Shown here in pieces: positions 27,285 through 34,946 of a stretch of 64,000 nt of DNA. The notes under the pieces were generated by a model. That model saw only the letters and a list, made by a program, of their open reading frames with translations. It searched no databases and had not been told where the DNA came from. Numbering within the stretch: position 1 is the stretch's first letter; each line of letters starts with the position of its first letter. Position numbers and translations under genes: made by a program. Source of the DNA: Meloidogyne chitwoodi (lineage: Eukaryota; Nematoda; Chromadorea; Rhabditida; Meloidogynidae); the NCBI GenBank assembly GCA_015183035.1, contig JACZZP010000013.1, positions 310,001 through 374,000 on the forward strand, in the 5' to 3' direction.

Positions 27285-29078
27285 ATGGCCTCAGATTTGT
27301 ATGAAAAATGTCTAAAAAATGCTCGTCCAGTTCAACAAAAGATGGATTCTAATATGATGTCAATTAGACATTTGGATATTAAATACAAACTTAAAGAGCA
27401 AGAAGCAAAACAAAAAATAATGAATTTGGTTACTTGTTGGAAAAAGCTGAATCGTCAAGAACAACGTCGAAAATATGAAGAAATTGAAGAATGCTTTACA
27501 CAGTAAGAGATTTTATTTTTCGAAAAATATTTTTACTTGGAAGGTATACAAGGTTTTTGTGAGGAATTTATTGTTAATATGATACATTCTTTAACTCTGT
27601 TTAATCACTCCCTTTGTTTTTATTATGTCTGGTAGAGATATTCAAAAATCCTTGGATCTGGATTCTTGGTTTAATTGGGCAGGGCTTAGGGCCTGTACTC
27701 CAGGAAAAAATCACGAATGTTTACAAATGTTTGTATATGAATTCTAGGTAAAGAAAACCTTTGGCTCAAATGAAACTCAATATTAAATAATTAAAAAAAT
27801 TTCAGAGCCAAAAATTTCTGTGACAAAAAAATTTCAATTGCCTCTGAAACTTACGAATTGGTCGACGGTTTTATTCAAAAATTGGATTCTGATACATCCA
27901 AGTTTAATGTACTTTTAACACAAAAACAGATGCAACAAGCTAATGAATTGGAAGAGAAAGGGAAAAAACAAACTCCGTCAACATCACGAAATGTCGCTAA
28001 AAACGGTTTTTCTTTTTTATTTTAAAGATTTTGGGTTTGGTAAAAATTGTTTTTGTTTTTCTAAAAAATTGGTATAACCTTCGTATTGATTAAAAATGCA
28101 TTTTTGAAGGAACAAAAATTGTTTTTCATCAGTGGGGTTCGAACCTTCGACCTACTGATAAAAGGCGAAGGTTCCCCGACTACACAAAAATACCACATAA
28201 TTTTATTTTAAATAAATGATTATATTTCTATATTTTTTCAAAGAAAATATTCAACAATCATCAAAAAAGACTGGGAGACGCTCAACTCCTCTCTCACCTT
28301 CAACTGTTTCAAGAAAAGGAAAAAGCGGCAGTTCTGCCCCAAGAAAACGCAAACGTTTGGATACATCAGGTTTATTTTTTAATACAAAATTAATTAATAT
28401 TATAATTTGTTTAAGTTATTGAGGATATTTCTGAGCCAGCTTTAGCCGTAACTGGATGTTTAAATCCTCTTATTGTGCCTGGACATGGTGATATGCCTGT
28501 TGATCCGAATGAACCTAGATATTGTGTTTGTCAACAAGTATATATTTTTTATTTTTTTATTTATTAAATAGCGATTTTGAGAATCCCAAAACTGAGAATA
28601 AGTATTTGAACTTTAAGATAACCTAAAAACAATAAAAATAATCGGCCCTGACATTAAAAAAAGGACAGGAAAATGTGAGTAGGCTCTCGTACCTGACTTT
28701 TTTTTTGAGAATTCCTAGACCGATAAATGGGCTAGAACTGACAAATGAATGAGGATTTGGAACATTACAAGTACTTGAATCTCAAGTTTTCCTCTAAAAC
28801 TTTTTAAAATACTTGAAAAATTAAATAGCTTTTTTACCAATTTTTATTTTTTAAAGGTTTCTTTTGGAAATATGGTCTGTTGTGATAACAAAAATTGTTT
28901 AATTGAATGGTTCCATTTTCCATGTGTTGGCATAACTTCATCACCAAAAGGAAAATGGTTTTGTCCACAATGTAGAGATGTTAAAGATTCAACTAAATTA
29001 TTAAAACGTGAAAAAGATGGCAATAATTCAACTAATATTAAAAATTCTGGAAAAAGAATTGCTGAAGAAAAGAAATAG
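27285..29078 (+). CDS. ing-3: ING-family PHD-finger protein, ING3-like
   Basis: Chromatin reader: ING proteins bind H3K4me3 through a C-terminal PHD finger and bridge to histone acetyltransferase or deacetylase complexes. ATG 27285 opens an ING coiled-coil with [20 protein letters not shown], joining in frame over 27504/27806 to [20 protein letters not shown] and [16 protein letters not shown] basic Ser-rich linker ([26 protein letters not shown]) follows. The PHD finger starts [12 protein letters not shown] and continues [26 protein letters not shown] and GKWFCPQC, giving the complete C4HC3 set. The tail is lysine-rich. ING3 versus other ING is a judgement from the NuA4-type linker and length. 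One intron holds an antisense tRNA-like element. Confidence 0.88.
28121..28190 (-). repeat. tRNA-like element
   Basis: Minus-strand TGTGTAGTCGGGGAACC and AGGTTCGAACCCC, tail CACTGATGAAAAAC. Intron of the ING gene, antisense. Confidence 0.6.
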
Positions 29079-29267
29079 AGAAAAATTTTTCCCTTCTGGT
29101 TTGACGCGATTAGTCGACCGCGAATGGTTGGACTTTTCCTACTATTTTTCGTTCTCTCTCTGTCTATTTTTTGTTTGTTTTGTTTTCTACACTATTTCTT
29201 CACGGCGGATTTTCCGGGACATTTGCCTCTGAAAAATAGAGTGGTTAAAAATGAAAGACAGCAGGCA

Positions 29268-32135
29268 CACGGCGGATTTTCCGGGACATTAGTGAAACTC
29301 TTACTGTCTAGCAAAGAGAAAAAATGCGATGAATTTTTCTCATCATTCTCTCTCATTTTTTACTCTTTTTCTTTTTCCCGCTCTCTTAATTTCCACGCTC
29401 TTTCCATTCAAAATCCGATGTAATCGACTTTGAAAGCCCATATCTCGACTAATTATCTCAACTTTAGAAAAATTATCTCCAATATTGTAGAGAAGGCTTT
29501 AATTAATATTTTGGTCAAAAAATTAGAACCGAATCAACTCAAAATAAAATTTGGCAACTCAAAAACTTTTTTATTGTTCCAAAATAAGAGAAAATGCCCC
29601 AAACGCGTAGAAATCAGCGATGTTATCGAGCAATGGGAAAGAAAAGTAGTCAAGAAAAAAGTAGCAGAAAAAAAGCTGCTGTTAAAAAAGCAGAAAACGC
29701 AGTTCAAACAAGAGAAAGTAATCGTAAAACTCAAGGTTTTTTATTTTTAAAATTTTAATTTTTTATTTTAATTAGCCCAATCTGGATCCACTGAACTTTT
29801 CCCCCAATCAAACACTAAAGAAGCAGAAACACAAACAATTGTAAATGCAAAATCAGTGGGCACTCAGACAAAAGTGAGGGGGAAAAATGTTGCCATTCAA
29901 ACTATTGAGAAAACAACTCTGAAGCAAGTAAAATCGGTGGGCACTCAGACAATCTCAAATAATCGAAGCAAAGCAACACAAACTTATCCTTTTTTTCAAA
30001 ATGATGCATCCACTCAGACTAGTGATAATTGTAAGATAAATATATTATTTTTAATAAAATGAAATTAAGCTAAAAATACAGAGAAGAGACAATTACAGGC
30101 ACTAGAAAATTTATCACCAAGGCATGTCAATAGGATTACAAAAAAAATGGGGAAGGAAATAAGATCGAGTCGATCAAGTATAACCATTTAAATTATTTTT
30201 ATTTTAAATTTAAGCTACTCCGGAGGGCCTAGCTTCAAGCCAGTTTATGAGACGACTAGAAAAAAATATATCTCCTACAGCTTGGCGAATTTCACCCGAA
30301 AAGGATTTGGCAGCAATATTAGCATCGGGTCTTACTTTTAAACAACGCTATAAACTCAAAAACTTTTTTCGCATGATTGGATTTGATACTTTTGCATCAA
30401 CACCTAAAATAAGTGAATTAAAAAAAGAATGGACAAATATTGGCCGCTGGGAGTGGAACAACGATGCTTATATTTGTTTAAACGTGGAAGAAGTTCTGTC
30501 GACAAGATTAAGTACTTTATCTAAATTCGGTTTTTTTAACATTTTTCTAGGTAATTTTCATTTTTTAGGTCACCTGAAAATGCATGAAAAATTCGCTGGA
30601 AATATTATTTTAACTATTATGGGTGATAAAGGTGGAAAAGAATGGCCTGCAAAATCAACTAAATTTACTGTTGCTATTGGTAATATGGATAAACCTAATA
30701 GCCCCTTTAACAACACTTTACTGGCTATATATAACGGTGATGATAATAGAGAAAATTTGAGCACAAAACTCGGTTCAGTTTTACTTCAATTGGAGGCCAT
30801 GCAAAATATTTCTTTTAATAATAATGGAAAAGAAGTAACATTTGATATTAAATGGTTGGATTATATCTAATTAAAATTTTACCTTTAAAGTTTAGGTTTA
30901 TATGCTCTGATCTTAAATTTATTAGCGCTTTTTATTCACATCGTGGGGCGACGTCAAATAACCCGTGTACTAAATGTTCAATTCCAAAGGAACAACTTGG
31001 ACCTTTTTGTGGTGAGACAAGAACACTAGAAGGATTATTTTACGATGCAGAAAAAAATATCAATTCCATCTTTGGCCGTCCACTACTCTCAATACCTCCG
31101 GCGCAAATAATTCCCCCTAGTTTTCATTTACTTCAGGGAATTTCTCAACGTGTAATTGATGCTTTTAATGATTATTGTGTTCATAGCGGCAGATCAATTC
31201 AACAAATATTGATTGAAGCACATGCAAAAATGGATCCACGAAAAAAAACATTTACTGGTTTTTAATTAAAAAATTTCTCATTATAAATTTACAGGTGCCG
31301 CATTGTACCGTCTTATTACTGGTCCTTCGAAGGAGAAGCTCAAACAAATTTTACCTTCTACACAATCTTCTACTATTCTCAAACGAATGCTCGATACACT
31401 AAGTCAAATATATGGATTTGCGAATGCTTCGTTCCTTGATAAAAACAACATTTGTAGTTTTAAGAAAGCAACAACAACATTATACAATGACATTCAGGTT
31501 TATCTTAAACATGACTATTTCTTTATTTCAAAAACTTAAGGAACTTCGCGGCCGATTTGAAACACTTAATTTTAGAGGAAATCTTGCTGGGGGTAATTTA
31601 AAAATTTTCAAGCCAACTCCGAAACTTCACATGCTTTGTGCTCATGCAGTTGAATTTGCAGAAGAAAATGGTTGGTGGAGTTGGATTTCAGAGCAAGGAA
31701 TGGAACACTTACATGCATTGTTTAATCGTCTTGTAAGTCTAAATTTGTCTAAATGAGTCATCAAGTTTAGGCCATTCAATATTGCAACACTGGAGACAAA
31801 AACAAGACAGCAGAAAAATTAGCTAAACACCAGGCACTCTTTAATGCTCTTAACGATAGAGGAATAATGAAACAAATTTATTGAGAATTATTTTCTTTAT
31901 TTTAAATCCAATTTTATTTTTTTTTGTTGATTTAACAATTAATAATTAATAAAAATCCAATCTTTCATTAAAAATTCCCTTAAAATACTCAAAAAGTCAC
32001 TTCAGTGCAGTAATTATTTTGTTGAGTGCCTTTCGCACTCAAACGTCGTAATTAAAAAGGAACGGCTTACTGCCTGCTGTCTTTCATTTTTAACCACTAT
32101 TTTTCAGAGGCAAATGTCCCGGAAAATCCGCCGTG
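29268..32135 (+). mobile_element. RAG1/Transib-like DNA transposon copy E1, full length
   Basis: A 2,868-bp element with 23-bp perfect terminal inverted repeats starting CACGGCGGATTTTCCGGG, flanked by the 5-bp direct repeat AGGCA (29263-29267 and 32136-32140). It inserted into the 3' part of E2 in opposite orientation, which makes the whole locus a near-perfect inverted repeat with arms of about 2.8 kb and a 57-bp non-paired centre. It encodes one spliced transposase (29594-31884) whose frame stays open. CAC-starting termini, 5-bp target duplications and a RAG1-type catalytic core place it in the RAG1/Transib/CMC clan. Transib fits the 5-bp duplication best; exact superfamily is not proven. 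Confidence 0.88.
29594..31884 (+). CDS. RAG1/Transib-like transposase of E1
   Basis: Exons 29594-29735, 29776-30030, 30070-30177, 30215-about 30855, about 30894-31257 and later ones splice in frame to TGA at 31882-31884. The N-terminus is basic, then disordered with repeated TQT motifs (EAETQT, SVGTQTK, SVGTQTI, KATQT, ASTQT). The core holds candidate first Asp in TIMGDKGGKEW, and KPNSPFNNTLLAIYNGDDN, which parallels a RAG1 core stretch. The second Asp candidate is in FICSDLKFISAF. The zinc pair CTKC is followed later by KLHMLCAH (H-x4-H), as in RAG1. The catalytic Glu candidate is in SEQGMEHLHALFNRL. The protein (about 600 residues) should cut and paste E1 and related copies. Confidence 0.8.
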
Positions 32136-32325
32136 AGGCAGTAAGCCGTTCCTTTTTAATTACGACGTTTGAGTGCGAAAGGCACTCAACAAAATAATTA
32201 CTGCACTGAAGTGACTTTTTGAGTATTTTAAGGGAATTTTTAATGAAAGATTGGATTTTTATTAATTATTAATTGTTAAATCAACAAAAAAAATAAAATT
32301 GGATTTAAAATAAAGAAAATAATTC

Positions 32326-34615
32326 TCAATAAATTTGTTTCATTATTCCTCTATCGTTAAGAGCATTAAAGAGTGCCTGGTGTTTAGCTAATTTTTCTGC
32401 TGTCTTGTTTTTGTCTCCAGTGTTGCAATATTGAATGGCCTAAACTTGATGACTCATTTAGACAAATTTAGACTTACAAGACGATTAAACAATGCATGTA
32501 AGTGTTCCATTCCTTGCTCTGAAATCCAACTCCACCAACCATTTTCTTCTGCAAATTCAACTGCATGAGCACAAAGCATGTGAAGTTTCGGAGTTGGCTT
32601 GAAAATTTTTAAATTACCCCCAGCAAGATTTCCTCTAAAATTAAGTGTTTCAAATCGGCCGCGAAGTTCCTTAACTTTTTGAAATAAAGAAATAGTCATG
32701 TTTAAGATAAACCTGAATGTCATTGTATAATGTTGTTGTTGCTTTCTTAAAACTACAAATGTTGTTTTTATCAAGGAACGAAGCATTCGCAAATCCATAT
32801 ATTTGACTTAGTGTATCGAGCATTCGTTTGAGAATAGTAGAAGATTGTGTAGAAGGTAAAATTTGTTTGAGCTTCTCCTTCGAAGGACCAGTAATAAGAC
32901 GGTACAATGCGGCACCTGTAAATTTATAATGAGAAATTTTTTAATTAAAAACCAGTAAATGTTTTTTTTCGTGGATCCATTTTTGCATGTGCTTCAATCA
33001 ATATTTGTTGAATTGATCTGCCGCTATGAACACAATAATCATTAAAAGCATCAATTACACGTTGAGAAATTCCCTGAAGTAAATGAAAACTAGGGGGAAT
33101 TATTTGCGCCGGAGGTATTGAGAGTAGTGGACGGCCAAAGATGGAATTGATATTTTTTTCTGCATCGTAAAATAATCCTTCTAGTGTTCTTGTCTCACCA
33201 CAAAAAGGTCCAAGTTGTTCCTTTGGAATTGAACATTTAGTACACGGGTTATTTGACGTCGCCCCACGATGTGAATAAAAAGCGCTAATAAATTTAAGAT
33301 CAGAGCATATAAACCTAAACTTTAAAGGTAAAATTTTAATTAGATATAATCCAACCATTTAATATCAAATGTTACTTCTTTTCCATTATTATTAAAAGAA
33401 ATATTTTGCATGGCCTCCAATTGAAGTAAAACTGAACCGAGTTTTGTGCTCAAATTTTCTCTATTATCATCACCGTTATATATAGCCAGTAAAGTGTTGT
33501 TAAAGGGGCTATTAGGTTTATCCATATTACCAATAGCAACAGTAAATTTAGTTGATTTTGCAGGCCATTCTTTTCCACCTTTATCACCCATAATAGTTAA
33601 AATAATATTTCCAGCGAATTTTTCATGCATTTTCAGGTGACCTAAAAAATGAAAATTACCTAGAAAAATGTTAAAAAAACCGAATTTAGATAAAGTACTT
33701 AATCTTGTCGACAGAACTTCTTCCACGTTTAAACAAATATAAGCATCGTTGTTCCACTCCCAGCGGCCAATATTTGTCCATTCTTTTTTAATTCACTTAT
33801 TTTAGGTGTTGATGCAAAAGTATCAAATCCAATCATGCGAAAAAAGTTTTTGAGTTTATAGCGTTGTTTAAAAGTAAGACCCGATGCTAATATTGCTGCC
33901 AAATCCTTTTCGGGTGAAATTCGCCAAGCTGTAGGAGATATATTTTTTTCTAGTCGTCTCATAAACTGGCTTGAAGCTAGGCCCTCCGGAGTAGCTTAAA
34001 TTTAAAATAAAAATAATTTAAATGGTTATACTTGATCGACTCGATCTTATTTCCTTCCCCATTTTTTTTGTAATCCTATTGACATGCCTTGGTGATAAAT
34101 TTTCTAGTGCCTGTAATTGTCTCTTCTCTGTATTTTTAGCTTAATTTCATTTTATTAAAAATAATATATTTATCTTACAATTATCACTAGTCTGAGTGGA
34201 TGCATCATTTTGAAAAAAAGGATAAGTTTGTGTTGCTTTGCTTCGATTATTTGAGATTGTCTGAGTGCCCACCGATTTTACTTGCTTCAGAGTTGTTTTC
34301 TCAATAGTTTGAATGGCAACATTTTTCCCCCTCACTTTTGTCTGAGTGCCCACTGATTTTGCATTTACAATTGTTTGTGTTTCTGCTTCTTTAATGTTTG
34401 ATTGGGGGAAAAGTTCAGTGGATCCAGATTGGGCTAATTAAAATAAAAAATTAAAATTTTAAAAATAAAAAACCTTGAGTTTTACGATTACTTTCTCTTG
34501 TTTGAACTGCGTTTTCTGCTTTTTTAACAGCAGCTTTTTTTCTGCTACTTTTTTCTTGACTACTTTTCTTTCCCATTGCTCGATAACATCGCTGATTTCT
34601 ACGCGTTTGGGGCAT
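32326..34615 (-). pseudogene. Transposase gene of E2, frameshifted
   Basis: Minus-strand duplicate of the E1 transposase, nearly identical base for base. A single A is lost in the A-run after SELKK (T-run at 33783-33788), so the frame leaves the conserved sequence just after the residues ISELKK. One further substitution near 32675 (AAACTT versus AAAGTT) is in a probable intron. All catalytic and zinc motifs are still encoded downstream in the original frame. The lesion must be young because there is almost no other divergence. Confidence 0.82.
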
Positions 34616-34946
34616 TTTCTCTTATTTTGGAACAATAAAAAAGTTTTTGAGTTGCCAAATTTTATTTTGAGTTGATTCGGTTCTAATTTTTTGACCAAAA
34701 TATTAATTAAAGCCTTCTCTACAATATTGGAGATAATTTTTCTAAAGTTGAGATAATTAGTCGAGATATGGGCTTTCAAAGTCGATTACATCGGATTTTG
34801 AATGGAAAGAGCGTGGAAATTAAGAGAGCGGGAAAAAGAAAAAGAGTAAAAAATGAGAGAGAATGATGAGAAAAATTCATCGCATTTTTTCTCTTTGCTA
34901 GACAGTAAGAGTTTCACTAATGTCCCGGAAAATCCGCCGTGTTCTT

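Follow-up and report, generated by a model that had tools for sequence, protein, structure and literature searches.

We analysed a 64,000-nucleotide stretch of the Meloidogyne chitwoodi genome (GenBank assembly GCA_015183035.1, contig JACZZP010000013.1, positions 310,001 to 374,000 of the forward strand; hereafter the window, in whose own numbering positions are given). Two DNA transposons, E1 and E2, lie nested in opposite orientation in the window between a PHD-finger gene and a prefoldin-like gene, with the following features.

29196..29200, no strand: target duplication TTCTT of E2, first copy
29201..29267, minus: right-end piece of E2, including the first copy of the E1 target AGGCA (sequence comparison)
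29201..29223, plus: 23-bp terminal inverted repeat, E2 right end
29263..29267, no strand: target duplication AGGCA of E1, first copy
29268..32135, plus: E1, a 2868-bp transposon inserted in E2 (ends, length, duplications)
29268..29290, plus: 23-bp terminal inverted repeat, E1 left end
29594..31884, plus: DUF1280 transposase gene of E1, 9 exons, 658 unbroken codons (predicted GT-AG model; Pfam)
32071..32140, no strand: 70-bp spacer of the near-palindrome (E1 right end and second AGGCA)
32113..32135, minus: 23-bp terminal inverted repeat, E1 right end
32136..32140, no strand: target duplication AGGCA of E1, second copy
32141..34941, minus: remaining piece of E2
32326..34615, minus: transposase gene of E2, frame broken (alignment of copies)
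34919..34941, minus: 23-bp terminal inverted repeat, E2 left end
34942..34946, no strand: target duplication TTCTT of E2, second copy
34968..34973, plus: AATAAA, the sole AATAAA or ATTAAA on the plus strand from the PHD-finger stop to the prefoldin-like start once the elements are set aside

As a preliminary description of this DNA had proposed, E1 occupies 29268–32135 with 23-bp inverted termini and an AGGCA duplication, and interrupts E2, which has identical termini and its own TTCTT duplication. The terminal 23-mer CACGGCGGATTTTCCGGGACATT occurs in four exact copies in the window (29201 +, 29268 +, 32113 −, 34919 −; 0 expected, 100 shuffles). That description was also right about the first piece of E2 (29201–29267) but began the second at 32136; positions 32136–32140 are duplicated target, and the piece starts at 32141. 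With this second AGGCA omitted, E2 is 2868 bp long on the minus strand, the same length as E1, and the two copies are nearly identical and oppositely oriented, as described, with six differing alignment columns (two substitutions, two single-base indels within homopolymers, and a CT indel of 2 bp). E1 lies 62 bp inside the right end of E2, in opposite orientation to it, and the resulting near-palindrome has one arm of 2803 bp and one of 2801 bp. Since the un-duplicated target is intact in E1 itself and in two further full-length copies, C3 and C27, all identical at that place, the 5-bp duplication of E1 is real. The pair arose in two events, E2 inserting first and E1 later inserting into E2, and each left a target duplication of its own.

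We searched the M. chitwoodi genome (47,477,280 bases in 30 contigs) for further copies, scoring the best candidates, such that copy counts are lower bounds. Besides E1 and E2 there are at least two full-length copies (C3 and C27), together with fragments and miniature copies. E1, E2, C3 and C27 differ pairwise by 0–5 substitutions, and each difference is private to one copy, which indicates a recent burst and agrees with the earlier claim of a recently active element. The same description spoke of insertion into the element's own copy; the nesting stands, and "sister copy" is the better term, as E1 is two substitutions from E2 and none from C27. With no substitution between E1 and C27 and all differences private, the data do not single out a donor of E1, and an origin from E2 cannot be demonstrated. 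More distant relatives in the genome have 66–71% DNA identity, among them subfamily B (L007/L008, 69%). Subfamily C comprises at least five full copies, 0–3 substitutions apart, and at least six internally deleted copies. A decayed element is present in two copies with the same match set (G000 C10:109768-113089 and C10:120017-123338), 10,249 bases apart, which points to a segmental duplication.

Nine exons, separated by eight introns of 37–43 nt, make up the predicted transposase gene of E1. In E2 the frame is broken by a 1-bp indel in an A run opposite position 30420, with a stop after 256 residues, and the predicted gene model stops after 524 residues in C3 and 162 in C27; since several of these breaks fall in homopolymer runs, they are possibly sequencing errors. 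The sole Pfam match of the E1 protein is DUF1280 (PF06918; 99.9 bits vs. a cut-off of 25). Database searches returned four more DUF1280 proteins, one of them from Romanomermis culicivorax, and in P0002 Pfam RAG1 was matched below threshold (E = 0.0055, 15.3 bits, cut-off 25). D293, D374, C393/C396, H587/H592, E608 and E612 are invariant in the six aligned proteins (E1, L007 and the four homologues). In alignment with RAG1, the second D falls on the D of YDEK and E612 on the E of SEGNES, which we take to be D708 and E962. All six proteins have the motif set by which the clan is defined (PMC12730594), a DDE core in which a CxxC follows the second D and an H(3-4)H precedes the E. By the open reading frame list, E1 has no room for a kelch (RAG2-like) protein; no search aimed at kelch was made.

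The poorly conserved N-terminus (E1 residues 37–129, window 29698–29990) carries a run of TQT/IQT/VQT motifs, numbering 7 in E1, 4 in L007, 6 in L015 and 4 in L085, with none past residue 150 in E1, L007 or L015. Such a run presumably resembles multivalent binding sites for LC8 (dynein light chain), which is a candidate reading. Homologues have an inserted PHD-like zinc finger in the stretch that separates the CxxC from the H...H block (residues 468–502 in P0003, where PF00628 scores 18.5 bits, below cut-off; about 480–640 in P0001); the M. chitwoodi elements are without it. L007:675-1089 (subfamily B) and L085:841-1262 (subfamily D) are 88% identical in DNA over 423 columns, which cover the 5′ leader and the part coding for the N-terminus; the remainder of the two proteins is far apart, as in a chimera between transposon subfamilies.

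Relationship to RAG1 was assessed by profile and by predicted fold, both through homologues. A profile of the six DUF1280 proteins matched RAG1L (6b40; E = 4e-15) and RAG1 chains. The top Foldseek matches of a structure model of the homologue P0003 (not of E1) were RAG1, RAG1L and HzTransib, with the fold matched from about RAG1 residue 460 to 1000. The six-protein profile had no sequence match to HzTransib, which is uninformative because RAG1L fragments likewise fail to reach HzTransib. These results support membership of the DUF1280 transposase in the RAG clan, as the preliminary description had suggested, and DUF1280 has been placed in one clade with RAG1 under the name Chapaev (PMC3985635).

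We also took a census of target duplications in 28 elements of the lineage that could be read at both ends. An exact 6-bp duplication flanked 17 of them (L003, L007, L008, L009, L014, L015, L031, L071/72, L073/74, L075/76, L077/78, L079/80, L081/82, L083/84, L085, L086 and L087), and an exact 5-bp duplication four (E1, E2, L010 and the decayed L088). Exact 3- or 4-bp duplications were found in 0/28 elements, save at the decayed end of L042 (GTCG), and account for none of the 21 exact duplications. The probability of a chance 6-bp match is ~0.0008 per element at the composition of the window. The prevalence of 6 bp extends beyond subfamilies A, B and C to divergent ones: L085 and L086, with 26% protein identity to E1 over the catalytic stretch (23–33% by piece), have 39-bp ends starting CACAGCAGG and duplications TGTATG and TTTTAT, and L087, with ends CACAGCACT, has TACCTA. 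Literature searches, which did not cover Repbase or supplements, returned no report of a 6-bp duplication in this clan. Adjoining the subfamily D element, L085:100-504 is a perfect, GTCTCGG-rich inverted repeat with 126-bp arms.

We consider it probable that E1 and E2 are cut-and-paste DNA transposons with one multi-exon DUF1280 transposase gene of the RAG1/Transib/CMC clan. Judging from the duplications and the fold, the transposase would pair two CAC...GTG ends, excise the element with a DDE active site formed by D293, D374 and either E612 or E608, and join it to the two target strands with a stagger of 6 bp or, at times, 5 bp. E2 landed between the PHD-finger and prefoldin-like genes, and E1, probably derived from one of several near-identical sister copies, entered E2 later, reversed and 62 bp in from the right end of E2.

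Several observations weigh against this interpretation. E1 and E2 themselves bear 5-bp duplications, which are exceptions insofar as the lineage mostly makes 6-bp ones; a further 4/28 elements have imperfect duplications (L002, L011, L069/70 and L042), and 3/28 have none (L036, L040 and L048). The P0003 model is of moderate confidence (predicted local distance difference test 62.9, predicted template modelling score 0.51, 4 sequences), and its Foldseek TM-scores are low (0.26–0.40 by query, root-mean-square deviation 14–22 Å). Neither E1 alone nor a profile of E1, L007 and P0001 matched a RAG1 chain in the PDB, and the M. chitwoodi sequences alone reached only 6.2% against RAG1 (E = 0.006). 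The exon structure of E1 is that of a predicted model. In L002, L011 and L069/L070, either one extra base lies between the element end and the duplication or the duplication has one mismatch, possibly through imprecise joining.

It is possible, if on balance unlikely, that these nematode DUF1280 elements are Chapaev proper and that the longer duplication is already known or is trivial variation. DUF1280 is equated with Chapaev in PMC3985635, and the elements share with Chapaev (CMC group) the DUF1280 transposase, the CAC...GTG ends and the C(2)C, LH and H(4)H motifs given in PMC4079192, here C393-C396, PPS(F/L)H at 443–446 and H587-H592. However, the duplications described are 3–4 bp for Chapaev (PMC4079192) and 2–5 bp for the whole clade (PMC12730594), whereas those found here are mostly 6 bp, some 5, and in no exact case 3 or 4. 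RAG1 and RAG1L (the V(D)J recombinase, ProtoRAG and other RAGL elements) resemble the lineage in profile match, predicted fold and CAC ends, but RAGL elements such as ProtoRAG have a RAG1L and RAG2L gene pair, in contrast to one gene in 2.87 kb with no RAG2-like partner seen, and RAGL duplications are almost always 5 bp (PMC7204232).

The host setting bears on a separate possibility, compatible with the transposon interpretation above, that read-through from the PHD-finger gene produces a long hairpin RNA of 2.8 kb whose small RNAs silence the family. The stop of the PHD-finger gene ends at 29078 and the prefoldin-like gene begins at 35098, both on the plus strand, such that the host interval without E2 (29079–29200 plus 34947–35097) is ~270 bp. 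E2 begins 122 bp past the PHD-finger stop, and that gene is transcribed toward the elements. These 122 bp hold neither AATAAA nor ATTAAA, and the AATAAA of the interval, at 34968, is beyond E2 and now 5.7 kb further from the PHD-finger gene. The arms of 2.8 kb, the 70-bp spacer and the predicted folding of the central 821 nt of the inverted pair (−626.9 kcal/mol vs. −152.2 for shuffles, which is strong because the sequence is a palindrome) would also suit a hairpin. On the other hand, E1 itself contains AATAAA and ATTAAA motifs, beginning with an AATAAA at 29543, that might terminate such a transcript early, and we regard the hairpin locus as improbable.

Maize Mu killer and double-Ds are, like E1 and E2, inverted pairs of sister transposon sequences, albeit of other superfamilies; the comparison is one of geometry, with silencing and chromosome breakage hypothetical for the nematode pair. 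Mu killer also adjoins a host gene that may read through, but is a rearranged partial duplication, whereas E1 and E2 are two full insertions. According to the abstract of PMC3440606, Mu killer consists of part of mudrA duplicated in inverted orientation, and read-through from a flanking gene is proposed to give a hairpin of ~4 kb. That the DUF1280 elements of this nematode form a separate clan branch with a 6-bp stagger and, jointly, that the inverted pair acts as a self-silencing hairpin-RNA locus, an animal counterpart of Mu killer, is a reading we hold to be quite improbable.

The Transib-like label of the preliminary description was not supported by the census, in which exact 6-bp duplications (17/28) prevailed over 5-bp ones (4/28). 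Transib elements are likewise single-gene, with CAC ends, the same fold class and 5-bp duplications, here a minority that includes E1 and E2, and these ends and duplications could reflect a true Transib transposase. But the element ends begin CACGGCGG or CACAGC, unlike the Transib terminal consensus CACWATG, most relatives have 6-bp duplications, and the protein belongs to DUF1280, put in Chapaev by PMC3985635; a Transib identity appears very improbable. Although long palindromes are generally difficult to assemble, an assembly artefact, in which a single copy was duplicated or mis-joined, is barely credible given two differing clean duplications (AGGCA and TTCTT), private differences in each arm, an E1 insertion site that is intact in other copies, and single host genes on either side. 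We class the elements as a DUF1280 lineage, labelled Chapaev, within the CMC/Transib/RAG clan, whose duplications are of an unusual 6 bp and sometimes of 5 bp. Elsewhere in the window, a tRNA-Ala (AGC) at 1348–1421 is the only tRNA and the only match at the Rfam gathering level.

The nested pair is a clear, datable case of transposons forming an inverted duplication beside a gene, the arrangement that underlies hairpin-RNA silencing in maize. For the clan ancestral to V(D)J recombination, target duplications of 2–5 bp have been described (PMC12730594). A lineage recently active in an animal and making duplications mostly of 6 bp, with some of 5 bp, would show that the stagger of a RAG1-type enzyme pair is not fixed, and its fresh insertions offer material for asking what determines the stagger.
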